The notes beneath the pieces are model-generated. The model saw nothing but the letters and a program-made list of their open reading frames with translations, made no database searches and was not told the origin of the DNA. A stretch of 21,170 bases of DNA from the IMG/VR virus record IMGVR_UViG_3300044972_000461, positions 1 to 21,170 of that record; one strand, given 5' to 3'. The number at the start of each line of letters is the position of its first letter. Position 1 is the stretch's first letter. This DNA is from a virus. This document shows, one piece after another, positions 1,137 to 19,472 of this stretch. Both the position numbers and the translations under genes were made by a program.

Positions 1137-1969
1137 AAAAAGTATTAATAACAGGTTGTTCAGGTTACATTGGTAGTCATCTAGCAAAGATGTTGATGAA
1201 TTCAATGAAGTATGAGGTGCATGGTTTAGATATTCATGAACCTCAACAACCAATGAATAAATTTTACAATCAAGATATCAATAGACTATTTACTCTTGCT
1301 GAAGAATTTGATTGTGTTATTCATTTAGCAGCCTTAGTTAATGTAGGTGAAAGTGAGCAGCAGCCCATAAGTTATTATATTACTAACTTGAATGGTACAA
1401 TGAATGTTATCAACAAGATTAAGACAAAGAACTTTATCTTTGCTAGCACAGGTGCAGCACAAGATTGTGGTAGCGCATATGGTATTAGTAAACGTGCTGC
1501 GGAAGATGTTGTGCGTGAATATTGTACTGTACATAATCCCAAAGATTACACAATCTTTAGATTTTACAACGTAATTGGCAGTGATGGATTTGCACCAACT
1601 AATCCGGATGGTTTAATGCACAATTTAATTAAATCAAAAGAAAAGGGCGAGTTTACTATTTTTGGGAATGACTATGATACACGAGATGGAACATGTATGC
1701 GTGATTATGTTCATGTAAATGAGATATGTGACGCATTGTGTACTGCTATTGAGAAGCCAAGTAATCAAATAGAATGCTTAGGGCATGGGGTAGGTTATAC
1801 TGTTGCTGAGATAGTTAATAAGTTCAAAGAAGTAAATAATATACCTAATATTAATTTGCTTACAAAGATAGGCCCAAGAAGAAAGGGTGACTTAGCAGTA
1901 TCCGTATTAGATAATGTGTCACCCTATATGAAAGAGTTATACTCTTTAGAAGAACTTCTTAAGATTTAG
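1133..1969 (+). CDS. NAD-dependent sugar epimerase/dehydratase (extended SDR, GalE-like)
   Basis: This 278-aa protein has the N-terminal Rossmann motif ITGCSGYIGSHLA (Gly8, Gly11, Gly14), then HLAALVNVGES, a catalytic Ser near residue 106 and the pair Tyr116/Lys120 in YGISK. FRFYNVIGSD and RDYVHVNEICDAL are typical of UDP-glucose 4-epimerase and related nucleotide-sugar enzymes. It is shorter than full GalE (about 330 aa), mainly in the C-terminal substrate-binding part, so substrate specificity cannot be inferred. It starts in a 4-nt overlap with the upstream glycosyltransferase, consistent with supplying or altering the sugar that enzyme transfers. Its stop overlaps the stop of the opposing gene. 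Confidence 0.85.
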   Translation: MKKVLITGCSGYIGSHLAKMLMNSMKYEVHGLDIHEPQQPMNKFYNQDINRLFTLAEEFDCVIHLAALVNVGESEQQPISYYITNLNGTMNVINKIKTKNFIFASTGAAQDCGSAYGISKRAAEDVVREYCTVHNPKDYTIFRFYNVIGSDGFAPTNPDGLMHNLIKSKEKGEFTIFGNDYDTRDGTCMRDYVHVNEICDALCTAIEKPSNQIECLGHGVGYTVAEIVNKFKEVNNIPNINLLTKIGPRRKGDLAVSVLDNVSPYMKELYSLEELLKI

Positions 1970-3897
1970 TGTCTTAACAATAATGTACTTAGTACACCAG
2001 GATCATTGGCACTAACATCGCCTTCACCTGGGGCAACAATAACATTATACTTCATGCCAGCCGGAATTGAATTTCGTTTGGCCATGTATTCAGTATAACT
2101 TAATATGCTTGAAACACTTATACCGTATTCTTTTGCAATACGTTGTTTCATTTCAGCAAGAGCCTCAGGACTAGCAGGTTGCCATGCTCCGTCATCAGTC
2201 TTTTTCAAGTTACCTTTCTCATCTTTAGCTAGTAAATCATAGAATAGTTTTTCTGGAACGATGCGGCTATTTTTAGTTGTATCTAAGTTTGGATCTTTTG
2301 CTTTAACTTGTTTCTCTTGTGCAGTGTTAGCACCTTCACTCCAATTGATAATGAAATTATCTGGCTTCTGAGCTAATGCTGCTCCTGCCATCTTAGTGTA
2401 AGCATAGAATCTAACATCAGGATGTTTAGCAGCCATCTTCAATGCCATATCTAAGTATTCTGGACTGAAGAAGTCACCGGCATCATGCCAGCGAACTGTT
2501 ACTTGCCAACCATTAGGGAATTTCTTATCACCCTTTGCTGCTGCTTTTGATTCAACAGAGATTTCATTGCTTAGTTGATTAAAGAAACCATCTGGATCGT
2601 TTAATAGATATGTTAGTATTCTTCCGTCACTTTGCCAAGCTGCTTTGAATTGAATTTTTCCACCTTTCATAGCGAAACAGTCAACTTTACATGAACCAGC
2701 GCCGGGGCAAGTATTAACAACAATTAGATTATTTGTTTGTTCATCTAATGCAATACCTACCAATGCTGCGAATCCAACGTTAAAGAATTGTTCAAACTCT
2801 CCATTACTATGCTTCATCTTTTCGTTTTGTTTTAGTAATGCTTTGGGACGAATTGATAATGTTTTCTTAACCGCATCTTCATCGTATGACTTACCATCTG
2901 GACTTAAGTATGAGACTACACTACTACGATGGATGTAAGGCATTTTGTATTTGTCGCCGGCAGTCTTACCAGTAGTATACTTTTCGTTGCCTTTCTTATC
3001 TACCTTAACGTTACCGGCTTTATCTAAGTCAGGTGTGCCTACGATACGTTTCATGTAGTCTTGAAACTCTTGACTATCTAAATCACGAGTTTGTGCTGGC
3101 AGTTTGGTTGCTTCACCTAACCCAGAAAGACTACGAATTCTATCTAAGTGTTCTTGGCCCTCCGCCACACCTTCTGAAAACCCGTTGTCTTCAAGATCGT
3201 TTTGTAATTCTATCTGGGCCATATTGAACCCCGATTTATATTCATCCCACTCAGTGGGTTCATCTGCTCTACTATAAGGATTATGATACGAGTTTGATCC
3301 CATTCTTTGACCATCGTAGTAACCTCGATCATAAGGATCAGGTGTCACCTGGCCTTCCGCCACACCTTGCTCTTTACTTTTCTTCAGTGTATTGGGATGT
3401 GCTAAACCTTTTTTGACTTTTTCTGCCTGACTCATCTTATCAACTTGCTTGCCAAGTTTAGGATCAACATCGTGCCAAGTCTTTGGATAGGGCTTTTTAT
3501 CACCTTCCGCCACACCTTCCGAAGTAATATTATCGGAAACTTTCCCTAGGAATTTTTTAATCATTGCTGGGTCATTTGCATAGAAACCCGGTAATTCACC
3601 GAATCTTTTAACATATTTTCTTATCATATCGTCACGTTCTGCCATTTTCAAACTATAACTTAAATCGTGAGAAGCATTAGCTGCTTTGTTTAATGCGCGG
3701 TAACTAGGACTAGTCATAAGTTTAATTCCGTGTTTAGCTCCGTGATACATGTCACCTACAATGCCCTCCGCCACACCTTCTTCACCGGGCATGTCACCAG
3801 CACTAGCAACAAATTGCTGAGGTGTCATAATTGAGATACCTTTTGGGGCGCCCGGCATCTTTGGCTCTGCGCCCTCGTGTAATTCTTTAAAGTTCAT
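1966..3897 (-). CDS. Modular (E/Q)GVAEG-repeat protein with C-terminal GP88-like domain
   Basis: I start this 643-aa protein at the ATG at 3897 because AGGAATAAG lies just upstream. An in-frame start at 3927 would overlap the previous gene by 41 nt. Four (E/Q)GVAEG repeats begin at residues 40, 127, 177 and 242. They divide the N-terminal 250 residues into short, unrelated-looking segments. The rest is one domain with CPGAGSC...C (Cys397, Cys403, Cys407) and VRWHDAGDFFSPEYL (His471-Asp475), followed by FYAYTKM. This pattern resembles the phage GP88 family, which is of unknown biochemical function. The N-terminus MNFKELHEG resembles a T4 capsid-targeting sequence. The GP88 assignment is from memory of the motifs. 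Confidence 0.75.
   Translation of the reverse strand: MNFKELHEGAEPKMPGAPKGISIMTPQQFVASAGDMPGEEGVAEGIVGDMYHGAKHGIKLMTSPSYRALNKAANASHDLSYSLKMAERDDMIRKYVKRFGELPGFYANDPAMIKKFLGKVSDNITSEGVAEGDKKPYPKTWHDVDPKLGKQVDKMSQAEKVKKGLAHPNTLKKSKEQGVAEGQVTPDPYDRGYYDGQRMGSNSYHNPYSRADEPTEWDEYKSGFNMAQIELQNDLEDNGFSEGVAEGQEHLDRIRSLSGLGEATKLPAQTRDLDSQEFQDYMKRIVGTPDLDKAGNVKVDKKGNEKYTTGKTAGDKYKMPYIHRSSVVSYLSPDGKSYDEDAVKKTLSIRPKALLKQNEKMKHSNGEFEQFFNVGFAALVGIALDEQTNNLIVVNTCPGAGSCKVDCFAMKGGKIQFKAAWQSDGRILTYLLNDPDGFFNQLSNEISVESKAAAKGDKKFPNGWQVTVRWHDAGDFFSPEYLDMALKMAAKHPDVRFYAYTKMAGAALAQKPDNFIINWSEGANTAQEKQVKAKDPNLDTTKNSRIVPEKLFYDLLAKDEKGNLKKTDDGAWQPASPEALAEMKQRIAKEYGISVSSILSYTEYMAKRNSIPAGMKYNVIVAPGEGDVSANDPGVLSTLLLRH
3158..3174 (-). 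repeat. 17-bp (E/Q)GVAEG repeat, copy 4
   Basis: The minus strand reads GAAGGTGTGGCGGAGGG, in frame at residue 242. It is the last copy before the long C-terminal GP88-like domain. Confidence 0.9.
3353..3369 (-). repeat. 17-bp (E/Q)GVAEG repeat, copy 3
   Basis: The minus strand reads CAAGGTGTGGCGGAAGG, in frame at residue 177, with Gln instead of Glu in the first position. It precedes a Tyr/Asp-rich segment of about 60 residues. Confidence 0.9.
3503..3519 (-). repeat. 17-bp (E/Q)GVAEG repeat, copy 2
   Basis: The minus strand reads GAAGGTGTGGCGGAAGG, in frame at residue 127. It differs from copy 1 only at a synonymous GAA/GAG position. The following segment is about 45 residues and Lys-rich. 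Confidence 0.9.
3764..3780 (-). repeat. 17-bp (E/Q)GVAEG repeat, copy 1
   Basis: Read on the minus strand this is GAAGGTGTGGCGGAGGG, encoding E-GVAE-G. It is in frame at residue 40 of the 643-aa protein and separates the N-terminal segment from a helical segment of about 80 residues. Confidence 0.9.
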
Positions 3898-4633
3898 TTT
3901 TCTTATTCCTAATAAATTGTTCAGCAAGCATTACTAATTCATGTAATTCTTCAATAGATTCGCAATGCCATCTACGTAGACTTTTATTTATATTGCTATT
4001 TGGATCGTTTGCTGTTTTTGCACCGGTACGATGTTTCTTCATTCCACGCATTCTTGCACAAAAGCTAGCTCTACGCTTTGCTGCTTTGCTGCCTTTTTTA
4101 AGTTTGCTTGGTTTAGTTGTTACTGCTGTTTGAATCTTGCTGCCAGGATGACTACGGCGATAACTGGCTACACTCTTTTTACTCATCCCACCTGCACGTT
4201 TGTTATTGTGCTTTGACCAAGTTTCACCCTCCGCCACACCTTGTTTTGGTTCTGGTAATCGTAATTTTTTACGCATTTCAGGGCTTGTGGCTGTTAAACG
4301 TTTCTGTTGTTCTTTATCTTGTCTTGCTTTTTCTTCCGGACTGTTATTACGTTTTTCTCTACGATCACCGCTTGATGTACGATTATCCATTTCTGATAAG
4401 CCTTCCGCCACACCTTGTTGGCCAAAAGAATCAAAATGTGCTTGTGCTTGTTTTTTAGAATTATATCTGTGAATCTCACCTGTTGGGCTTGTAACTTTCC
4501 ACTCAACATGGTCAGTTGTTCTTCCTGACGGATTATTATCCTTTTCAATCTTTGGAGTGGTTTTTACCACTGGTCTGATATACTTTTTAAATCGGTCTTC
4601 CGGAGAACTCTCGGTTATTTCATTAAATCTCAT
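3887..4633 (-). CDS. Modular basic (E/Q)GVAEG-repeat protein
   Basis: This 248-aa protein has QGVAEG repeats starting at residues 73 and 131. Segment 1 begins MRFNEITESS and includes a short beta-rich stretch with EWKVTSPTGEIHRY. Segment 2 is charged and probably helical. Segment 3 is very basic, with KAAKRRASFCARMRGMKK, then AKTANDPNSNINKSLRRWHC. I recognise this SFCARM...RWxC pattern from many T4-like phage proteins (DUF6321-like), whose role is unknown to me. The C-terminal 30 residues are helical and acidic. The gene overlaps the start of the next (E/Q)GVAEG gene by about 11 nt, so they form a unit. The high Lys/Arg content would suit a DNA-associated or internal head protein, which is inference. 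Confidence 0.75.
   Translation of the reverse strand: MRFNEITESSPEDRFKKYIRPVVKTTPKIEKDNNPSGRTTDHVEWKVTSPTGEIHRYNSKKQAQAHFDSFGQQGVAEGLSEMDNRTSSGDRREKRNNSPEEKARQDKEQQKRLTATSPEMRKKLRLPEPKQGVAEGETWSKHNNKRAGGMSKKSVASYRRSHPGSKIQTAVTTKPSKLKKGSKAAKRRASFCARMRGMKKHRTGAKTANDPNSNINKSLRRWHCESIEELHELVMLAEQFIRNKKNEL
4227..4243 (-). repeat. 17-bp (E/Q)GVAEG repeat, copy 6
   Basis: The minus strand reads CAAGGTGTGGCGGAGGG, in frame at residue 131 of the 248-aa protein. It lies directly before the basic SFCARM-containing segment. Confidence 0.9.
4401..4417 (-). repeat. 17-bp (E/Q)GVAEG repeat, copy 5
   Basis: The minus strand reads CAAGGTGTGGCGGAAGG, in frame at residue 73 of the 248-aa protein. It is identical at nucleotide level to copy 3 in the neighbouring gene. 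Confidence 0.9.
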
Positions 4634-4711: not shown

Positions 4712-5737
4712 TTGACAAATCAATCTATCAAACGCCTCGGATTTGCTTGCAAATTTAGTGAACTAAACACTAAGGGCGAAGTAGTTAGCATACCCGAAAT
4801 GAATACCGGTGGTACTACTCTCGCTTGGGCAGCTAGGCAAAAGCGTAGTATCGCAGAAGAAAAGGTAATTGAAGTTGCTAAACGTAACATTCTGCATACC
4901 CACAATCTAGTTAAAAAAGTAGCAACACTACAACCCGAACTACGTATGGTTCGTCTTACTAGTGACATGATTTCTTTTTATACACATGATGACTGGAAAG
5001 ATTTCTGGCAAGATAGTGATATTCAGAAGAAACTAGAACACTGGATGGCACCCATTGGTGAAACAGCTAGAACCAATGATGTTCGTCTTTCATTTCACCC
5101 AGGTCAATTTACAGTTTTAGCGAGTGATCGTGAAGAAGTAGTAAATAAGAGTATAGAAGAATTTGAATACCATTGCGACATGGTTCGTTGGATGGGCTAT
5201 GGCAAATCATTTCAAGACTTCAAAGTTAATGTTCACATTTCTGGTAGAAAAGGTCCTCAGGGTATCAGAGATGTTTATAATCGGTTGTCCCCTGAGGCAA
5301 GAAACACACTTACACTAGAGAATGAGGAATACACACATGGACTACTTGACTGCTTATCATTATCTGACCTCGTACCTACGGTCCTCGATATCCATCATAA
5401 TTGGATTCGTGAAGGAGAATACATTCAGCCTACTGATGCGCTTGTACAACGGGTTATTGATAGTTGGCGCGGTGTTCGCCCTACTATGCATTACAGTGTT
5501 AGCCGCGAAGATATACTCGGAGAACATTCCGCAACACGATTACCCGATCATGGTGCGTTGATTGCAGCAGGCTATAGTAAGCAGAAACTTAGGGCACATA
5601 GCGACCAATACTGGAATGATGCCGTGAACGATTGGGCATTGACATTTCTTGAGAACTTTGATATCATGTGTGAATCAAAATGGAAAAATCTTGCTAGCTT
5701 TAAATTATTTGAAAGATATAAACATGGGACTATTTGA
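4712..5737 (+). CDS. uvsE: UV-damage endonuclease (UvsE/UVDE family)
   Basis: This 341-aa TIM-barrel nuclease resembles UVDE, which nicks DNA 5' of UV photoproducts and other lesions to start alternative excision repair. Family motifs appear in order: RLGFACKF at the N-terminus, RLTSDMISFYTH, LSFHPGQFTVL (metal-binding His), VNVHISGRKG, LTLENEEY, VLDIHHNWI (His pair), RPTMHYSVSRED, HSDQYWND and FDIMCESKWKNLA. These give the His/Glu/Asp set that binds the metal cluster. The start must be the TTG at 4712. An in-frame TAG lies at 4700, and the next ATG would remove the conserved RLGFAC strand. No clear Shine-Dalgarno is seen. The next gene overlaps its end by 14 nt. Confidence 0.88.
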   Translation: MTNQSIKRLGFACKFSELNTKGEVVSIPEMNTGGTTLAWAARQKRSIAEEKVIEVAKRNILHTHNLVKKVATLQPELRMVRLTSDMISFYTHDDWKDFWQDSDIQKKLEHWMAPIGETARTNDVRLSFHPGQFTVLASDREEVVNKSIEEFEYHCDMVRWMGYGKSFQDFKVNVHISGRKGPQGIRDVYNRLSPEARNTLTLENEEYTHGLLDCLSLSDLVPTVLDIHHNWIREGEYIQPTDALVQRVIDSWRGVRPTMHYSVSREDILGEHSATRLPDHGALIAAGYSKQKLRAHSDQYWNDAVNDWALTFLENFDIMCESKWKNLASFKLFERYKHGTI

Positions 5738-6172: not shown

Positions 6173-6201
6173 TTGACACCAAATAGATTTGAGTATATAA
6201 T
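6173..6201 (+). promoter_or_regulatory. Island promoter 1 (consensus sigma70)
   Basis: TTGACA (6173-6178), a 17-nt spacer and TATAAT (6196-6201) are perfect consensus hexamers. The spacer and the bases after -10 (AGAGTCTTA) match the repeated cassette. The rest of the leader up to the ATG at 6233 is different, so this is a diverged or recombined copy. Confidence 0.85.
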
Positions 6202-6232
6202 AGAGTCTTACTACCTTGTTTGGAAAAAAGTT

Positions 6233-6469
6233 ATGAACGAACGAATTATCAATGACCTTGCTGTCAAGTCTGGACTAGCCGAAGACATGGGTAGAGGTTA
6301 TAAATTTCCTGACAATTATCTAGATTTCGCCCAGTTGATTGTGAAAGAATGTATGACCACTATTCTCAAAGAATCTAAATGGTATTGGGATAAGGATGAA
6401 TTTGAAAGTTCTAATGCTATTCAAAATGCGGCAAGACGAGTAAAAGAACATCTCGGAGTTGAAGAATGA
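6233..6469 (+). CDS. MNERI...HFGVEE family small protein, paralogue A
   Basis: This 78-aa protein starts at the ATG at 6233, downstream of promoter 1. In-frame codons before it lie in the promoter itself. It shares three blocks with three other proteins in the island: an N-terminal MNERI followed by a short helix, a central FAQLIVKEC, and a C-terminal KEHLGVEE. No enzyme motif is seen and the protein is probably helical. Similar proteins are common in viral metagenomes as far as I recall, without known function. Its last codons encode the Shine-Dalgarno for the next gene, whose ATG overlaps this stop. Confidence 0.75.
   Translation: MNERIINDLAVKSGLAEDMGRGYKFPDNYLDFAQLIVKECMTTILKESKWYWDKDEFESSNAIQNAARRVKEHLGVEE
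6455..6469 (+). repeat. GGAGTTGAAGAATGA stop/RBS/start junction, copy 1
   Basis: These 15 bases encode the C-terminal GVEE and stop of one gene. They also supply GGAG as ribosome binding site and the overlapping ATG of the next. The next 11 bases, ACGAACGAATT, also recur at the 9608 copy. Confidence 0.85.
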
Positions 6470-6627
6470 ACGAACGAATTCGACAACTTGCTGAACAGGC
6501 TGGCTTTGCTTATGAACCTAGCCCGACATTACAAAAGTTCGCCGAGTTGATTGTGAAGGAATGTTGCGATCAGGTAAGAATGGTTGATGCTATGGAAATT
6601 AAAAAACATTTCGGAGTTGAAGAATGA
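6466..6627 (+). CDS. MNERI...HFGVEE family small protein, paralogue B
   Basis: This 53-aa protein is the shortest family member. It reads MNERIRQLAEQAGFAYE, then TLQKFAELIVKECCDQV, and ends IKKHFGVEE. It keeps all three family blocks but has almost no variable region between the central helix and the C-terminus, so it approximates the family core. The start overlaps the previous stop (ATGA) and GGAG lies 8 nt upstream. It ends in another GGAGTTGAAGAATGA junction. Confidence 0.75.
   Translation: MNERIRQLAEQAGFAYEPSPTLQKFAELIVKECCDQVRMVDAMEIKKHFGVEE
6613..6627 (+). repeat. GGAGTTGAAGAATGA junction, copy 2
   Basis: This is identical to copy 1. It joins paralogue B to an unrelated 82-aa gene. 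Confidence 0.85.
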
Positions 6628-6872
6628 CTCCATACGGATATATTAGTAAGAGATATAGATTCATCTTTGGCCCAGGCAACTTTGAAATGCCTCGTATTGA
6701 TACAAGGGAAGCAGACAAACTCTTTCCATTGTTTTCGTGTTATCTTGAGTCACAATACCCAGGACAAGAACCATGGGGCGGTGTTGTTCCCGACATAGGA
6801 TTAGTTTACTACTATACTGAAAACATTGGCGAGTTGGGCATAGAGCCTTTGTATCTAGGAGTTGAAGAATGA
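6624..6872 (+). CDS. Hypothetical 82-aa protein ending in GVEE
   Basis: I do not recognise this family. The protein starts MTPYGYISKRYRFIFGP and is rich in aromatic residues, with a predicted mixed alpha/beta composition and no membrane segment. Its last four residues (GVEE) match those of the unrelated MNERI proteins, and the matching DNA carries the next gene's ribosome binding site. The shared tail is therefore better explained by the DNA junction than by common ancestry of the proteins. It overlaps the genes on both sides by 4 nt. Confidence 0.65.
   Translation: MTPYGYISKRYRFIFGPGNFEMPRIDTREADKLFPLFSCYLESQYPGQEPWGGVVPDIGLVYYYTENIGELGIEPLYLGVEE
6858..6872 (+). repeat. GGAGTTGAAGAATGA junction, copy 3
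   Basis: This is identical to copies 1 and 2. It joins the 82-aa gene to an 81-aa gene whose first codons ATGAACGAA match the MNERI genes. Confidence 0.85.
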
Positions 6873-7114
6873 ACGAAGTACAATACAAAGCACACGAAGA
6901 ATGGGCCAAGCAGAGAGTAGAAATCGCCGAGCGTGAGACAGATCAGGCTTTGCATTTGGTTGCAATGGCGCATTTGAATTTAATGCAGCATCTCAATTAC
7001 GGGTTTGATCCAAAGACTGCACATAGCACCCTGATCAGCGTGGGTCAAATATATCCTAAACTAAAAGCAAAGATGGATGAATTAACTCGGGAATTAGAGA
7101 ATAAAAAAGATTGA
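6869..7114 (+). CDS. Hypothetical 81-aa helical protein
   Basis: The protein starts MNEVQYKAHEEWAKQRVEIA and is almost entirely helical and charged, ending in a coiled-coil-like MDELTRELENKKD. No known family is recognised. Only the first three codons match the MNERI family. Its stop codon TGA (7112-7114) is the TGA inside the TTGACA -35 box of promoter 2, so the downstream cassette supplies the end of the gene. Confidence 0.65.
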   Translation: MNEVQYKAHEEWAKQRVEIAERETDQALHLVAMAHLNLMQHLNYGFDPKTAHSTLISVGQIYPKLKAKMDELTRELENKKD

Positions 7115-7165
7115 CATTAAATGGTTTTGGCTATATAATAGAGTCTTAATCAGTTAATTAAAGGA
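7111..7165 (+). promoter_or_regulatory. Island promoter cassette 2 (promoter, leader and RBS)
   Basis: TTGACA 7111-7116, a 17-nt spacer and TATAAT 7134-7139 are followed by a leader containing CAGTTAATTAAAGGA, where AAAGGA (7160-7165) is the ribosome binding site. This is one of five nearly identical 55-bp units. TTAATTAA in the leader is a palindrome. Confidence 0.9.
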
Positions 7166-7171
7166 ACACAA

Positions 7172-7339
7172 ATGAACGAACCAAAACCTTTTTCTCTGGA
7201 ATTAGCTGACATGTGCGAGGCGTACCAAGATCCAATGCTCCTAGCTGCCGCCGGCGAACTGCGCCGTCTGTACCAGGAAGTCCAGCGGCTAGAGGCTGAA
7301 CTGGATGACATACACTACCAGAATTCAATGAATGCTTGA
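7172..7339 (+). CDS. Small helical protein (55 aa) of higher GC content
   Basis: The ATG at 7172 follows AAAGGA by 6 nt. The protein reads MNEPKPFSLELADMCEAYQD, then AAGELRRLYQEVQRLEAEL, ending in HYQNSMNA. The second half is a classic short coiled-coil of a type common in phage small proteins. Codon use is distinctive: the stretch around 7240-7310 uses GCC, GGC, CTG, CGC and CAG codons, while neighbours prefer A/T-ending codons. This suggests recent arrival from a GC-richer phage. Function is unknown. An antisense frame of similar length exists but lacks a promoter or RBS. Confidence 0.7.
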   Translation: MNEPKPFSLELADMCEAYQDPMLLAAAGELRRLYQEVQRLEAELDDIHYQNSMNA

Positions 7340-7348
7340 ATATATTGG

Positions 7349-7403
7349 TTGACATTAAATAGTTTTGGGTATATAATAGAGTCTTAATCAGTTAATTAAA
7401 GGA
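7349..7403 (+). promoter_or_regulatory. Island promoter cassette 3
   Basis: TTGACA 7349-7354, a 17-nt spacer, TATAAT 7372-7377 and the shared leader with AAAGGA at 7398-7403. It differs from cassette 2 at two spacer positions. Confidence 0.9.
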
Positions 7404-7410
7404 CTTCAAA

Positions 7411-7599
7411 ATGTTTGCACCGAAAGATCAAAAAGCACTGTTTCGCATAGGCGCTAAGGTTAAATGCTCTTGGTACGGTTCTGGCGTGTATAAAGTCACT
7501 AAGAAGTATCGTGATGCTACAGGTTTGCTGAGTTATACCATTGAAAACGACCTTGAAACTCATCAATTTGTACGTCAAAAAGACTTAGATAAGGTTTGA
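7411..7599 (+). CDS. Small SH3/KOW-like protein (62 aa)
   Basis: The protein starts MFAPKDQKALFRIGAKVKCS and is predicted to be mostly beta: IGAKVKCSWYGSGVYKVTKK is followed by SYTIENDLETHQFVRQKDL. Short beta-barrel proteins of this pattern often bind nucleic acid or proteins, but no signature proves it. The ATG is 7 nt after AAAGGA of cassette 3. Its stop TGA (7597-7599) lies inside the -35 box of promoter 4. Confidence 0.65.
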   Translation: MFAPKDQKALFRIGAKVKCSWYGSGVYKVTKKYRDATGLLSYTIENDLETHQFVRQKDLDKV

Positions 7600-7650
7600 C
7601 ATTAAATGGTTTTGGGTATATAATAGAGTCTTAATCAGTTAACTAAAGGA
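7596..7650 (+). promoter_or_regulatory. Island promoter cassette 4
   Basis: TTGACA 7596-7601, a 17-nt spacer, TATAAT 7619-7624 and the shared leader with AAAGGA ending at 7650. One leader base differs (AACTAAAGGA). Confidence 0.9.
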
Positions 7651-7656
7651 GTTTGT

Positions 7657-7932
7657 ATGACTGACATTTCTGCAATCAACGGTGCTATTCTTGCTGGTAA
7701 CTTTACTAATGACCAACTGACTAGCATTGGTGATGCAATTCGTTTTGCCCGTGCCCAACTTGGGCAACAAAATAAATACACCCTCAGAGTCGGCACTAAA
7801 GTGAAATTCACTAGTAGCCGTACTGGTATGGAAGTGAGTGGTGATGTGCAAAAAATCAATCGCAAATTCATTATCGTCAAATCTGGTATGACCAACTGGC
7901 GTGTCCCGGCATCAATGTTGTCAGCCGCTTAA
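7657..7932 (+). CDS. Conserved small phage protein with SH3-like C-terminus (91 aa)
   Basis: An N-terminal helical part (residues ~10-38, NDQLTSIGDAIRFARAQLG) is followed by a beta-rich part: LRVGTKVKFTSSRTG, GDVQKINRKFIIVKSG and NWRVPASML. I recall similar 80-100 aa proteins in many marine and freshwater phages, always hypothetical. The C-terminal part resembles the 62-aa neighbour in style, so both may be small beta-barrel binding proteins. The start is well supported by AAAGGAGTTTGT before the ATG. Confidence 0.75.
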   Translation: MTDISAINGAILAGNFTNDQLTSIGDAIRFARAQLGQQNKYTLRVGTKVKFTSSRTGMEVSGDVQKINRKFIIVKSGMTNWRVPASMLSAA

Positions 7933-7942
7933 GGAGTAAATC

Positions 7943-8158
7943 ATGGATAAAGTTTTTGTTATCATCGGTGCAGTTGTGCTAGGTCTTGTAGGCTTGATGG
8001 CTCTTAGTTTCTTGCTGAGTTGGCCCGTGATGGCATTGTGGAACGGTTGCTTGGTTGGCGCCGTAGATGGCGTCAAGGAAATAGGTTGGCTACAAGCATG
8101 GGGTATTTCAGTATTGTGTGGCATCTTGGTTAAATCTAATGTGAGTACATCAAAATGA
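7943..8158 (+). CDS. Small inner-membrane protein (71 aa, two TM segments)
   Basis: Two hydrophobic stretches span about residues 5-35 (VFVIIGAVVLGLVGLMALSF, then LLSWPVMALW) and 49-63 (WLQAWGISVLCGILV). The pattern LLSWPVM...W...QAWG...LCGIL is common in phage small membrane proteins as I recall. AAGGAGTAAATC precedes the ATG, giving a strong RBS overlapping the previous gene's end. There is no promoter of its own, so it is read from cassette 4. Membrane placement is supported by sequence, but its role is unknown. Confidence 0.75.
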   Translation: MDKVFVIIGAVVLGLVGLMALSFLLSWPVMALWNGCLVGAVDGVKEIGWLQAWGISVLCGILVKSNVSTSK

Positions 8159-8325
8159 GCAAAATATCTGAGTTGGATCTAACTATCCGTGACATGTTGG
8201 AAGAGGGTTACGGCCCGGTAACAATCTCTGTGCGATTGGGAATCCCTGTATACTTTGTTTATGATATTTTGTCATACGATGAGGACAACCAAGAATTGAG
8301 TCCGTTCAATACAGTAAATTCCTAG
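8155..8325 (+). CDS. Small helix-turn-helix-like protein (56 aa)
   Basis: Residues ~9-40 (TIRDMLEEGYGPVTISVRLG, then IPVYFVYDIL) fit a helix-turn-helix of the type 'length-of-helix, G, turn, recognition helix' seen in small phage HTH proteins and resolvase-type C-termini. It could be a DNA-binding regulator. The ATG overlaps the stop of the membrane protein gene (ATGA). No strong RBS is visible, so translation is probably coupled. The stop is just before promoter 5. Confidence 0.65.
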   Translation: MSKISELDLTIRDMLEEGYGPVTISVRLGIPVYFVYDILSYDEDNQELSPFNTVNS

Positions 8326-8326
8326 G

Positions 8327-8381
8327 TTGACAACAAATGGTTTTGGGTATATAATATACTCTTAAACAGTTAATTAAAGGA
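8327..8381 (+). promoter_or_regulatory. Island promoter cassette 5
   Basis: TTGACA 8327-8332, a 17-nt spacer, TATAAT 8350-8355 and the shared leader with AAAGGA ending at 8381. The bases after -10 are ATACTCTTAAACAG instead of AGAGTCTTAATCAG. The spacer start (ACAAATGG) is shared only with cassette 6. Confidence 0.9.
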
Positions 8382-8388
8382 AAAGAAA

Positions 8389-8553
8389 ATGTTAGTACGT
8401 GATTTGATGGCTTTGTTAGCAGATATGCCCCTAGATGCTGTGGTTGATATGACCATGAACGAAGAATATTATGGCGCAGTTGGCCGTGTTGATTGTCACT
8501 TTGATTCCGACCGCGGAGTTCATGTAGTGGTAATAGACGACCATTTAGCGTAA
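8389..8553 (+). CDS. Hypothetical acidic 54-aa protein
   Basis: The protein begins MLVRDLMALLADMPLDAVVD, followed by MTMNEEYYGAVGRVDCHFDS and VHVVVIDDHLA. The N-terminal LLADMPLDAVV pattern recurs in many short phage proteins, where it is followed by a beta strand that reports a value-like motif. Their function is unknown. It is the only gene under cassette 5. The start is fixed by AAAGGAAAAGAAAATG. Confidence 0.7.
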   Translation: MLVRDLMALLADMPLDAVVDMTMNEEYYGAVGRVDCHFDSDRGVHVVVIDDHLA

Positions 8554-8568
8554 AAATATGCCCAAAAC

Positions 8569-8623
8569 TTGACAACAAATGGTTTTGGGTATATAATATA
8601 GTCTTAATCAGTTAATTACAGGA
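8569..8623 (+). promoter_or_regulatory. Island promoter cassette 6
   Basis: TTGACA 8569-8574, a 17-nt spacer, TATAAT 8592-8597 and the leader ending in ACAGGA (8618-8623). The spacer is identical to that of cassette 5. Confidence 0.9.
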
Positions 8624-8631
8624 GTTCTCAA

Positions 8632-9045
8632 ATGGCATATTTTAATCAAGAACGCAAAGCAAAAATTGCCCCTAAAATCAAGGCTATTCTTGCTAAGTAT
8701 AAGGTTAAGGGTTCGCTTGCTGTTCGCAATCATATGACCCTGTGCTTGAATCTTAAATCTGGTTCTATTGACTTTATTGCAAATTCTAATAAAGTTTGCG
8801 GGAATAGTCACTACCAAGTGGCTAGAGGTTTTAAACCTAGTACTAGTGGTTACGATCAAGTTAATCCTTATCACTTCAAAGATCATTACGACGGTAAGGC
8901 CCTTGCTTTTATGCAGGAAGTGTTTGCTGCCATGAATGAAGGTAATCACGACCATAGCGACATTCAATCCGACTACTTCAACGTGGGGTGGTATGTTGAT
9001 GTGAACATTGGTAAGTGGGACAAGCAGTATATTTTGGAAGCATAA
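8632..9045 (+). CDS. Conserved phage protein (137 aa)
   Basis: The protein starts MAYFNQERKAKIAPKIKAIL and continues with KGSLAVRNHMTLCLNLKSGS and IDFI, then a Tyr/His-rich middle, and ends with DYFNVGWYVDVNIGKWDKQY. I recall homologues in large phages and in mobile elements, some of them as parts of bigger polyvalent proteins, but no biochemical role. It is the first gene of a run of genes through 10268 with no further cassette, so cassette 6 probably drives all of them. Confidence 0.75.
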   Translation: MAYFNQERKAKIAPKIKAILAKYKVKGSLAVRNHMTLCLNLKSGSIDFIANSNKVCGNSHYQVARGFKPSTSGYDQVNPYHFKDHYDGKALAFMQEVFAAMNEGNHDHSDIQSDYFNVGWYVDVNIGKWDKQYILEA

Positions 9046-10287: not shown

Positions 10288-10316
10288 TTGACAATAAAGC
10301 CATTCTGTGTTATCAT
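10288..10316 (+). promoter_or_regulatory. Promoter 7 (diverged) with long leader
   Basis: TTGACA (10288-10293), a 17-nt spacer and TATCAT (10311-10316) form this promoter. The spacer does not match the cassette family, and the leader to the ATG at 10378 is longer (about 55 nt from the predicted start). A predicted transcript start near 10323 coincides with the foot of a hairpin. Confidence 0.65.
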
Positions 10317-10377: not shown

Positions 10378-10773
10378 ATGGCTAAACAAACTTTTAAAGT
10401 CGCTGGTATTACTACTCATAACGGTAATACTAAGGTTCGTTTTACTGATGACATGGTTCGCCGTATCAAGCAGTTTACTAAGGGCGGAGCAAGTCGTATT
10501 GACTTGGTTGAGTTGCCCAGTGAGATGACTAAGATTGAGGCTCTCAATCATATGGCTACCCTAGAGATGTTTGCATCTCCTGGTGATCAGGCAACTATTG
10601 CCGATACGCTTGATGACAAAACAAAGGAAGCAAACAAAGGTACAGTAAAAGTCAAAGTCGCAAAGACTAAGGCAAAGCCTAGCATGGATGCAATCAAGTC
10701 TCGTGCTAAGAAGGTTACTAAAGAAGTTTCGGTAGATCAAATTCTTGCCGAAGCAGGTGTTACTGTTCAGTAA
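10378..10773 (+). CDS. Conserved phage protein with basic C-terminal tail (131 aa)
   Basis: The start at 10378 follows AAAGGAAACAAA. The N-terminal domain reads KQTFKVAGITTHNGNTKVRF, then DDMVRRIKQFTKGGASRIDL and ELPSEMTKIEALNHM. The C-terminal third is Lys/Ala-rich with repeated KxKxAK patterns, then a helix SVDQILAEAGVTVQ. I recall conserved homologues in many large aquatic phages without assigned function. The basic tail suggests nucleic-acid contact, which is inference. It has its own promoter and structured leader, which suggests separate expression from the other island genes. Confidence 0.75.
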   Translation: MAKQTFKVAGITTHNGNTKVRFTDDMVRRIKQFTKGGASRIDLVELPSEMTKIEALNHMATLEMFASPGDQATIADTLDDKTKEANKGTVKVKVAKTKAKPSMDAIKSRAKKVTKEVSVDQILAEAGVTVQ

Positions 10774-11227: not shown

Positions 11228-11270
11228 AAAGCCCCAAAAGGAACTTTTTTAGCCCCGAAAGGGGCTTTTT
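11226..11270. terminator. Terminator between convergent operons, probably bidirectional
   Basis: AGCCCC (11251-11256), loop GAAA and GGGGCT (11261-11266) are followed by a T-run, a strong rho-independent terminator for the plus strand. An upstream arm AAAAAGCCCC (11226-11235) can also pair with GGGGCTTTTT (11261-11270). Read on the minus strand, that longer pairing ends in TTTTT and would stop the opposing operon. Confidence 0.85.
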
Positions 11271-11272
11271 TA

Positions 11273-12169
11273 TTAACTTAAAATTTCAATCCAGTTGTCA
11301 ATCACATATTTCCAATCATAAGATTGTGCGTGATGCTGTATCTCTAAACATCTTTGACGATATTTTTCTGAGTTTGATTTATAATAACTCAATAGTTCTA
11401 CTGTCTTTTCTATAAACTCGTGTTCTACGATTGGAACAAAATCTGCACCCTTCTCTCCTACTCTACTGTAATGTCCAACTGGTGTACTGATAACTAATTT
11501 TCCAGCAGCACCGGCTTCTAATAGAGGTAGTCCCGCACCCTCTTCGGTGCTAGCAATCAATACTGCATCTACTTTTTTATAAAATCCCGGCATAGTAATA
11601 AACGAATGATGATATGCGGCTGCTGCCTTGATATTTAATCCTGATCTTTGAGTAGCAATCTCTAATAGCCACGGTCGTTTAATATGTTGATGTACCCCTA
11701 CTTGCCCCAAATTCATACATCCAACTGTACATAGTGAATCATTTGGCTTACTGTAAAAACTATTAGTATTGATACCCAATGGGGTAACAACTGCAGGTCT
11801 AGTAACACCTAATTCTAAACTTATATTACTTAACCATTCACTAACTGCACCATACTTATGAAACTTATCAAAGTCATCTAACCCGTGCATCTGAATTAAT
11901 TCTTCAATATCTAATTTAGAATGGCCAATAACTACACATTGTTTTGGATCAACAATCTTGTAACTGTATCCTAGCAATCTCCATCCATGCGGAGTGGTAA
12001 CAAACAAGTCGGTAGTGTCTATTAACTCTTGCATCTCCTCTACGGTATAACTTTGATTCCAGGGAAGTAACTGACAATCAAATCCATATCCCCACAAATA
12101 CTTACACAATTCATAGTGAATTGTACCAAATGCCCAAGTAGGTTCCATGTAAAATACTATTTTTTTCAT
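11273..12169 (-). CDS. GT4-family glycosyltransferase (298 aa)
   Basis: The N-terminus MKKIVFYMEPTWAFGTIHYE matches an acceptor-domain Rossmann strand. The donor domain contains ASTEEGAGLPLLEAGAAGKL with the E-x7-E arrangement, then VISTPVGHYSRVGEKGADFV, typical of GT4 enzymes. At 298 aa it is shorter than most GT4 proteins (350-400), with a compact N-terminal domain. The start overlaps the end of the preceding GT-like gene by 4 nt. It is the last gene of the minus-strand operon and stops directly at the terminator. Donor and acceptor are unknown. Confidence 0.8.
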   Translation of the reverse strand: MKKIVFYMEPTWAFGTIHYELCKYLWGYGFDCQLLPWNQSYTVEEMQELIDTTDLFVTTPHGWRLLGYSYKIVDPKQCVVIGHSKLDIEELIQMHGLDDFDKFHKYGAVSEWLSNISLELGVTRPAVVTPLGINTNSFYSKPNDSLCTVGCMNLGQVGVHQHIKRPWLLEIATQRSGLNIKAAAAYHHSFITMPGFYKKVDAVLIASTEEGAGLPLLEAGAAGKLVISTPVGHYSRVGEKGADFVPIVEHEFIEKTVELLSYYKSNSEKYRQRCLEIQHHAQSYDWKYVIDNWIEILS

Positions 12170-17392: not shown

Positions 17393-17484
17393 TTAAAAAG
17401 TTATTGAACCACTAGTAATCCATTTGTATATTCTATATCCACCGCTAACAACTGGATATCCAACTGCTAAGTTTGCAGTACTTG
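17393..17484 (-). repeat. Duplicated 3' end of Gly-rich gene, copy a
   Basis: These 92 bases match 18594-18685 at 89 positions by my count. They encode the last 30 residues of both adhesins and are well suited to homologous exchange of the variable part. Confidence 0.9.
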
Positions 17485-18256
17485 ATGCTGCGGGGTATGT
17501 ATCAGCATAGCGAATAATTACAATACCCGAACCGCCGGCGTATCCAATATCAGTGCCAGTGCTGCCATTCGCTCCGCCTCCCCCACCTCCCCCGGTGTTT
17601 ATGGTACCTGCAGTACCCGAAGACCCGCCGGTGCCACCACCGCCCAGTCCACCAACTCTGCCGGCACCACCTTGATATGCATTCGTGCCGCCCCCTCCAC
17701 CGCCGGCATAATAAGTAGCAGTTCCAGTAATAGATGATTGTAGTCCATTGCCGCCGGATCCACTTAGTGGATTTACAGCTGCCTGGCCGACAGCGCCGGC
17801 TCCGCCGCCGCCGCCCGAAGGATAGCCCGAACCGTAAGTGCCTCCGGCTCCACCGTTATTACCTTGTCCTGCTGTACCAGCACCTCCTGCAATTGTTCCC
17901 GGACCACCTGTACCCGGACCACTACCACCGCCTGAACCGCCGGTATTACCGGGCGTAGCATAAGTACCACCATAGCCACCACCGGCGCTAGTAATTGTGC
18001 CAAAAACTGAAGAATTGCCATTTGTTCCGGTGACTTCAGAAGTTCCAACCGTACCTCCAGCACCAACTGTTATAGTAACTGTAGAACTTACCTCGGCAGA
18101 ATAGCCAGTTGCGGTTCTATAACCACCTGCGCCTCCACCACCGCCAATGCCACCGCCGGCGCCTCCACCCGCGACAACTAAGTATTCAACTAATATGGGC
18201 GGTGGTGGGGCTGTATAAGTAAATCCACTAGTTAATAGCATTCCAGCTAATTCCAT
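17393..18256 (-). CDS. Glycine-rich tail adhesin 2
   Basis: The 287-aa protein starts MELAGMLLTSGFTYTAPPPP, followed by VEYLVVAGGGAGGGIGGGGG, a long Gly-rich region, and the closing SGIVIIRY (residues 243-250). A C-terminal domain of 37 residues ends YRIYKWITSGSITF. VEYLVVAGGGGG and SGIVIIRY frame the polyglycine-II-like adhesin domain found in many aquatic phage fibres. It is a paralogue of the Gly-rich gene at 18594-19472. The conserved termini probably attach to the fibre, while the variable Gly region contacts the host. The ATG lies 1 nt after the stop of the 107-aa gene. Confidence 0.88.
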   Translation of the reverse strand: MELAGMLLTSGFTYTAPPPPILVEYLVVAGGGAGGGIGGGGGAGGYRTATGYSAEVSSTVTITVGAGGTVGTSEVTGTNGNSSVFGTITSAGGGYGGTYATPGNTGGSGGGSGPGTGGPGTIAGGAGTAGQGNNGGAGGTYGSGYPSGGGGGAGAVGQAAVNPLSGSGGNGLQSSITGTATYYAGGGGGGTNAYQGGAGRVGGLGGGGTGGSSGTAGTINTGGGGGGGANGSTGTDIGYAGGSGIVIIRYADTYPAASSTANLAVGYPVVSGGYRIYKWITSGSITF

Positions 18257-18593: not shown

Positions 18594-18685
18594 TTAAAAA
18601 GTTATTGAACCACTAGTAATCCATTTGTAGATTCTATATCCACCACTAACAACCGGATATCCAACTGCTAAGTTTGCAGTACTTG
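18594..18685 (-). repeat. Duplicated 3' end of Gly-rich gene, copy b
   Basis: Partner of 17393-17484 (three mismatches over 92 bases). The gene starts are also duplicated: 18221-18256 and 19437-19472 differ at two positions over 36 bases. Confidence 0.9.
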
Positions 18686-19472
18686 CTGCTGCGGTGTCTG
18701 TATCTGGATAGCGAATAATCACAATGCCAGAACCACCGTTGCCACCTTGTTTCCATGTACCGCCCCCACTAAAACCTCCGGCACCACCGCCACCGCCGGT
18801 ATTTGCGGTGCCATTTGTTCCAGTACCTGATGTGCTGCCCGCACCACCGCCACCACTACCGCCTGATCCTCCGCTGCCTAGACCACTAGTGCTACCCCCA
18901 CCGCCGCCGGCATAAGTTACACTTGCTCCTGATATAGAAGATGCTAGTCCTGCTCCACCGGCACCGCCGCTTTCAGTAACACCTACACTTCCTACAGCGC
19001 CAGCACCTCCGCCACCGCCGCCGCCGTTAGCGTCTCCGGGGTAAGCGTATGGCGCTCCATTACCCCCGTTATTACCTTGACCGGAAATTCCCGTGCCTGC
19101 GGTGGTTCCGTTCTGACTACCACCACCGCCACTTCCACCATCTCTAGTTGTGGTAGCGTTGCCGGCGCCGCCGCCGCCACCAGTAGAAGTAATTGTACTA
19201 AATACAGAATTAGTACCAACTTGTCCAGACTGTCGGCCAAAAGTATTCTCTGTTGCACCGTTGCCCCCAGCACCAACTGTAACTGTAATTGCAGAACCTG
19301 ATGATACAGCTAACCCAGTTGCGGTTCGATAACCACCGGCACCACCGCCGCCACCACCCTGCTGAGAACCACCGCCGCCACCGGCTACAACTAAGTATTC
19401 AACTGTAGCGGGTGGGCCCGGTGGTGGCACAAAAGTAAATCCACTAGTTAATAGCATCCCAGATAATTCCAT
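18594..19472 (-). CDS. Glycine-rich tail adhesin 1
   Basis: This 292-aa paralogue of adhesin 2 has the N-terminus MELSGMLLTSGFTFVPPPGP, then ATVEYLVVAGGGGG, a highly Gly-rich middle with Ser/Asn insertions, SGIVIIRY (248-255) and a C-terminus nearly identical to that of the sister gene. The Gly-rich part differs from the paralogue, as expected for host-specificity segments. TTTAAAGGAAAATAAA gives a strong RBS. It is the first adhesin gene of the operon and follows a 169-nt gap. Confidence 0.88.
   Translation of the reverse strand: MELSGMLLTSGFTFVPPPGPPATVEYLVVAGGGGGSQQGGGGGGAGGYRTATGLAVSSGSAITVTVGAGGNGATENTFGRQSGQVGTNSVFSTITSTGGGGGAGNATTTRDGGSGGGGSQNGTTAGTGISGQGNNGGNGAPYAYPGDANGGGGGGGAGAVGSVGVTESGGAGGAGLASSISGASVTYAGGGGGSTSGLGSGGSGGSGGGGAGSTSGTGTNGTANTGGGGGAGGFSGGGTWKQGGNGGSGIVIIRYPDTDTAAASTANLAVGYPVVSGGYRIYKWITSGSITF

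Follow-up and report, generated by a model that had tools for sequence, protein, structure and literature searches.

A promoter cassette array in a viral contig

The viral record IMG/VR IMGVR_UViG_3300044972_000461, analysed over its whole length of 21,170 bp and referred to below as the window, contains an array in which a 55-bp cassette, composed of a consensus sigma70 promoter, a leader and a Shine-Dalgarno (SD) site, recurs in front of unrelated small genes (Table 1). Exact matches to TTGACA-N17-TATAAT lie on the plus strand at positions 6173, 7111, 7349, 7596, 8327 and 8569, as reported in a preliminary description of this DNA, and make up six of the seven exact sites in the window; with up to two mismatches, 19 sites were counted against 5.9 expected, a number that no shuffle reached. 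The five cassettes from 7111 onward are 89-96% identical in pairwise comparison over 55 bp, whereas mean identity falls to 27% in the 55 bp upstream and to 23% in the downstream gene sequence; their near-identity amid unrelated flanks thus agrees with the earlier account. A 22-nt leader, TCTTAATCAGTTAATTAAAGGA, occurs five times in the window at up to one mismatch (0.00 expected, none in shuffles). The cassette at 6173 had been described as sharing the promoter part only, and indeed it has 69-75% identity to the other five and just the first leader bases in common with them. The AAAGGA motif previously ascribed to all five is present in four; the copy at 8569 has TTACAGGA instead.

The genes behind the five cassettes encode proteins of 55, 62, 91, 54 and 137 amino acids (aa) and fall into five separate families, in keeping with their description as unrelated; a firm database family, of no known function, was obtained only for the 137-aa gene. 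Searches for intrinsic terminators between the units of the array, and for known structured RNA in the window, found none. A near-consensus promoter at 10288-10316 of the window (TTGACA-N17-TATCAT), located before the conserved gene 10378-10773, contrasts with the cassettes in having an unrelated spacer.

Table 1. Coordinates of the cassettes, their genes and the downstream terminator in the window.
Feature	Position	Strand	Remarks
Divergent sixth cassette (promoter and first leader bases)	6173..6210	+	Drives 78-aa gene 6233-6469; relative L005 carries this divergent text at its position 2847
Cassette 1: promoter, leader, SD	7111..7165	+	TTGACA holds stop TGA (7112-7114) of gene 6869-7114
55-aa gene after cassette 1	7172..7339	+	Family F36, without database match
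Cassette 2	7349..7403	+	Exact promoter and shared leader
62-aa gene after cassette 2	7411..7599	+	Family F37; stop TGA inside -35 box of cassette 3
Cassette 3	7596..7650	+	Site of one extra complete unit in relative L005
91-aa gene after cassette 3	7657..7932	+	Family F6, conserved in relatives
71-aa membrane-protein-like gene, without own cassette, same unit	7943..8158	+	phrog_2169, E 1.7e-6
56-aa gene, without own cassette, same unit	8155..8325	+	TAG stop 1 nt ahead of cassette 4
Cassette 4	8327..8381	+	Exact promoter and shared leader
54-aa gene after cassette 4	8389..8553	+	Family F38
Cassette 5 with upstream half-dyad	8560..8623	+	CCCAAAAC at 8561-8568 against GTTTTGGG in spacer; promoter at 8569
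137-aa gene after cassette 5	8632..9045	+	Family F10, phrog_10415; homologues in Sinorhizobium, Variovorax and Klebsiella phages
First strong intrinsic terminator downstream of array	11251..11276	+	Terminator prediction

Cassette-bearing contigs, phage type and expression

At least 120 IMG/VR contig stretches contain the cassette promoter text; 20 of the records concerned, taken at full length, had 1 to 16 copies each at up to three mismatches (16 in a 303-kb contig, 14 in a 264-kb contig), and the reversed control gave none. Both large contigs encode a T4-type major capsid protein (Gp23) and homologues of RB49 gp43, UvsX, gp41, gp44, gp46 and gp47; the large contigs also yield a gp55 (late sigma) homologue that is a weak match but adjoins gp47, and an RNA polymerase beta subunit was searched for in them and not found. 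By its predicted gene content, the carrier of the array is a giant T4-type phage of an uncultured group, in which the window fragment is placed through its relatives. A comparison of the cassette with 50,697 annotated phage records returned no significant match and two weak partial hits (E 0.06). No cultured carrier was found; Variovorax phage V45v66 and Sinorhizobium phage phiN3 possess homologues of the gene at 8632, but with other promoters at this place. A borrowed host promoter was also considered and rejected; the exact text occurred once in 84,980 prokaryote genomes, in a metagenome-assembled genome of the Clostridia, ahead of a short-chain-dehydrogenase-like gene, probably by chance.

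The cassette genes are probably expressed early and transcribed by the host RNA polymerase, as argued by the perfect sigma70 hexamers, the failure to find a beta subunit gene, the gp55-like factor, and late-type promoters on the opposite strand. These consist of the motif (G/C)ATAAATA, which is enriched approximately 33-60 fold upstream of genes on the capsid-gene strand, opposite the cassettes (G001, G002), and probably represents a form of T4 late promoter; a search upstream of genes for the unaltered T4 late motif TATAAATA found none. Since the window array has no terminator between its units and the first strong one on the plus strand follows only downstream of the array, upstream transcripts should traverse the downstream units, and expression would add up along the array.

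Conserved and variable parts of the cassette

In the two large contigs, consensus promoters fall mostly into two groups, one with the spacer NNAAATGGTTTTGGGTA or a text near it, the other with unrelated spacers. Across 17 contigs, AAAT (spacer positions 3-6) and TTTGGG (positions 10-15) are conserved at 85-100%, values that are inflated by the similarity threshold with which the units were gathered, and positions 1, 7 and 9 are free. Spacer differences amount to 3.39 within a contig and 3.85 between contigs, with one in 2000 shuffles as low; copies within a contig are thus slightly more alike, and constraint and copying within lineages both seem to act. Orthologues with at least 95% protein identity have identical spacers in only 36% of pairs.

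The upstream boundary of the units is tight. In 135 of 293 cassettes, the longest upstream open reading frame ends at the TGA inside TTGACA, and in a further 93 of the 293 it ends 1-5 nt ahead of the -35 box. The leader measures 29-34 nt in most units; in approximately 28 others (for example L040:192, L098:6625, L162:937 and L022:3098), the ATG lies exactly 6 nt past TATAAT, a distance that fits transcription starting at this A and therefore argues that the promoters are used. These leaderless cassette promoters often precede the MNSKI-RKRRTDRNQV family, and their mRNAs should be leaderless.

Behind 310 cassettes stand 71 gene families with a median length of 88 aa and almost entirely unassigned functions; among 69 family representatives, named functions came exclusively from helicase- and HNH-type matches, and the others matched uncharacterised models. 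Structures were predicted with low confidence for the 137-aa and 91-aa proteins (mean predicted local distance difference test scores of 59 and 68, respectively); the 91-aa model, a small beta-barrel, matched only generic small barrels, none at E<=0.001. A second repeated junction between small genes, GGAGTTGAAGAATGA, occurs at 67 places in 35 sequences (in the window at 6455, 6613, 6858, 9249, 9608 and 9796); here, the 3' end of a gene (protein end GVEE) holds the SD site for its successor, and the stop codon of the first overlaps the ATG of the second. Genes of the MNERI(K/R)ELAEQAG family and some unrelated ones end in this junction, which resembles a site of translational coupling.

Gain, loss and re-pairing of units

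The gain or loss of a unit is most readily followed in L005, a relative approximately 95% identical to the window, with six exact cassette copies compared to five in the window. Up to the end of its promoter at 4843, L005 matches the window up to 7625; from its promoter at 5303 onward, it matches the window from 7596. The segment between these two L005 promoters is a full additional unit in which a 133-aa gene has a leader to itself, and the three junction places share one and the same 30-bp promoter sequence. In 74 pairwise comparisons, the two contigs differed in this way, one reading X-P-Y around the promoter P and the other X-P-Z-P-Y; one particular unit is absent in L015, L043, L114 and L117 and present in L006, L025, L026, L087, L095 and L110, contigs from different samples. 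Simple insertions or deletions (indels) were defined by a length of 100-2500 bp and flanks of at least 85% identity, and were grouped by inserted DNA; of the 51 distinct ones, 25 coincide with cassettes, although cassettes and their 5-bp margins account for 1.0% of bases. Junction repeats reach 59 bp in these 25 indels and do not exceed 21 bp in the remaining 26.

Pairwise alignments lead to the same sites: their ends are 12-fold enriched at cassettes, breaks with homology resuming downstream cluster between -10 and +9 of TTGACA, and 88% of the gene ends preceding a cassette are break sites, as opposed to 42% of other gene ends. For the 12 gene families with enough data, each family is followed by 4.75 different successor families on average. 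The proposal in the preliminary description that expression-ready units are duplicated and reassorted is supported by the extra unit of L005, the indels at cassettes and the changed neighbours. The two patterns that would have spoken against it, a fixed gene order in relatives and normally diverged promoters, were not seen; relatives gain and lose units at the cassettes and place them beside other neighbours there, and divergence of leaders and genes has left the spacer motif in place.

A probable modular platform for small genes

Quite probably, the array serves a T4-type phage as a modular platform that holds small accessory genes and whose units are exchanged by recombination at the cassettes. 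A unit would open with the stop codon at which the preceding gene ends, in many cases the TGA within TTGACA. The consensus sigma70 promoter with its conserved spacer would come next, then a leader of approximately 30 nt that closes with an SD site, and finally a single tiny gene or a few of them. Recombination between cassettes, acting as direct repeats of approximately 30-59 bp, would delete, insert or re-pair complete units; since all units begin with the same 30-55 bp or so, any two cassettes could recombine, and the products would immediately be transcribable and translatable. The predicted anatomy of the units, the diversity of genes behind the cassette, their apparently unit-precise gain or loss and their re-pairing with new neighbours are directly documented by the aligned contigs. 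Homologous recombination would be the likely route, and homologues of UvsX and gp46/47 are present; the promoter apparently has a second use, as a point at which new genes can be plugged in, and a role of the cassette genes in host takeover or counter-defence may be inferred.

Several points weigh against this interpretation. About half of the indels (26 of 51) lie away from cassettes, and genes must therefore be exchanged by other routes as well. Alignments would break at any conserved promoter that separates genes, so that the precision of crossovers is overstated. A difference between contigs with and without a unit may reflect its gain as well as its loss. Finally, all relatives are metagenomic contigs and were chosen for cassette carriage.

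The best-surviving alternative is compatible with a modular platform. In it, the spacer together with the sequence ahead of the -35 box would act as an operator; a phage or host regulator could bind TTTGGG, with or without an inverted CCCAAA, and unite the cassette genes into one regulon, with shuffling as a by-product. In accordance with such an operator, 51 of 327 cassettes have CCAAA in the 10 nt that precede the -35 box (0-3 in adjoining 10-nt windows), and a perfect inverted repeat of at least 9 bp spans the -35 box in 11 of 301 cassettes (2.7 in permutations, with none of 300 permutations yielding as many); moreover, early genes of archaeal viruses share one promoter with the predicted repressor Aca8 (PMC11065993). 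Yet the second half of the putative operator is found in a minority of cassettes, in the window in one of five, and no regulator gene was identified, so that this explanation appears rather unlikely. The inverted repeat around the -35 box (CCCAAAAC / GTTTTGGG, window 8561-8592) shows compensating changes in some units, for example in L102 near 3448; it is possibly an operator, or an RNA hairpin of upstream transcripts. As a general feature of the cassette, a hairpin across the -35 box was rejected, as it is found in a minority of cassettes only.

A somewhat broader proposal, also rather unlikely, is that the cassette is kept for two jobs. Its spacer motif (AAAT and TTTGGG, in some copies extended to a dyad) would be recognised by a regulator devoted to an early regulon, and its text would serve as a recombination plug; the cassette would then mark an open-ended pool of genes for takeover and counter-defence in uncultured giant phages. 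If so, the plug would bring stop codon, promoter, leader, SD site and start, and nearly all small genes placed between two plugs would function immediately.

Selection on expression could also account for the repeated text, if each gene independently retains the best early promoter and leader, and gene gain and loss by ordinary illegitimate recombination only appears to be bounded by promoters, the sole conserved stretch that separates genes. The retention of AAAT and TTTGGG across lineages with diverged genes, while positions 1, 7 and 9 vary, is what a constrained motif would look like. Against this, cassette junctions show near-identical flanks and direct repeats that are 30-59 bp long, compared to repeats of 0-21 bp elsewhere; the spacers of the remaining consensus promoters in these genomes are unrelated, so that the hexamers cannot by themselves dictate the spacer text; and cassette copies resemble each other more within a contig than between contigs. 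Pure selection is therefore improbable as the whole explanation. It is very improbable that short repeats, in general difficult for short-read assembly at 30-59 bp, made metagenome assemblers skip or join units, since both states, unit present and unit absent, turn up repeatedly in contigs of separate samples, the flanks differ by 1-15% as in distinct strains, and the repeat is shorter than usual read lengths.

If the array is a modular platform, it provides many natural examples, at the resolution of single units, of phages gaining or losing working small genes, a process usually inferred from few isolates. The promoter text would also serve as bait for approximately 71 small and mostly uncharacterised families that are probably expressed first in infection, and first-expressed genes are where host-takeover and anti-defence proteins tend to occur.

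Other features of the window

Apart from the array, the window contains a gene for a UvdE-type UV-damage endonuclease (4730-5737), to which genes of Dickeya and Erwinia jumbo phages are distantly related. On the minus strand, two proteins encoded at 1966-4633 have EGVAEG / GVAEG motifs scattered through them, and this region is the site of an approximately 620-bp indel between the window and L005 that is bounded by a 17-bp repeat. Two glycine-rich proteins, also on the minus strand (17393-18256 and 18594-19472), have 145-bp ends that are 92% identical, and are probably encoded by duplicated tail-fibre-like genes with variable middles.

Comparison with known systems

Like the cassette units, the small early gene clusters of T4 are under strong sigma70 promoters; the T4 promoters found in the first 25 kb are TTTACT or TTTACA with diverse spacers, and lack a common spacer or leader text. 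The cassette is of another kind, and assignment to the T4 early promoter type was rejected.

In archaeal virus early regulons, unrelated small genes under one consensus promoter have been used to predict anti-defence genes (PMC11065993). The near-identical strong promoter common to unrelated small genes (71 families here) recalls the cassettes; the archaeal regulons differ by their TATA/BRE promoters and belong to other viruses, and the timing and anti-defence function of the cassettes are predictions. In cluster K mycobacteriophages, the SAS is a 13-bp element, GGGATAGGAGCCC, at the translation start, to which ESAS adds a 17-bp inverted repeat (PMC3203893). This system likewise places a short repeat before the starts of many unrelated small genes and varies in presence among relatives; its sequence, phage type and host are unrelated, and the passages of PMC3203893 considered here describe no unit-precise indels. 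Membership was rejected, since the element before the starts is TTAATCAGTTAATTAAAGGA-like here, and not GGGATAGGAGCCC. The archaeal regulons and SAS/ESAS are analogues of the cassette, not relatives.

Gene shuffling by promoter-early stem-loop (PeSL) elements in T4-type phages was reportedly the subject of studies by Arbiol et al. in 2010 and Comeau et al. in 2014 (cited in PMC4503421). PeSL cassettes are composite promoter-terminator motifs of T4-type phages such as RB49 and phi1. They resemble the present cassettes in their repeated strong sigma70-like promoters, their location in small-accessory-gene regions of T4-type phages, and shuffling between repeats; they differ in the stem-loop terminator joined to the promoter, and in promoter spacers that vary in RB49, whereas spacer and leader belong to the repeat here. 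Excised mini-circles packaged in virions and early expression are further traits ascribed to PeSL; of these, early expression is predicted for the present array. Membership in PeSL proper was ruled out for lack of terminators, with none in the window and terminators at 5.8% of 326 cassettes compared to 3.6% of random genome pieces. The general idea of shuffling is already known, and the cassette, as predicted from its sequence, is a terminator-less variant of a PeSL-like system, which suggests that promoter-mediated shuffling is possible without the terminator half of PeSL.

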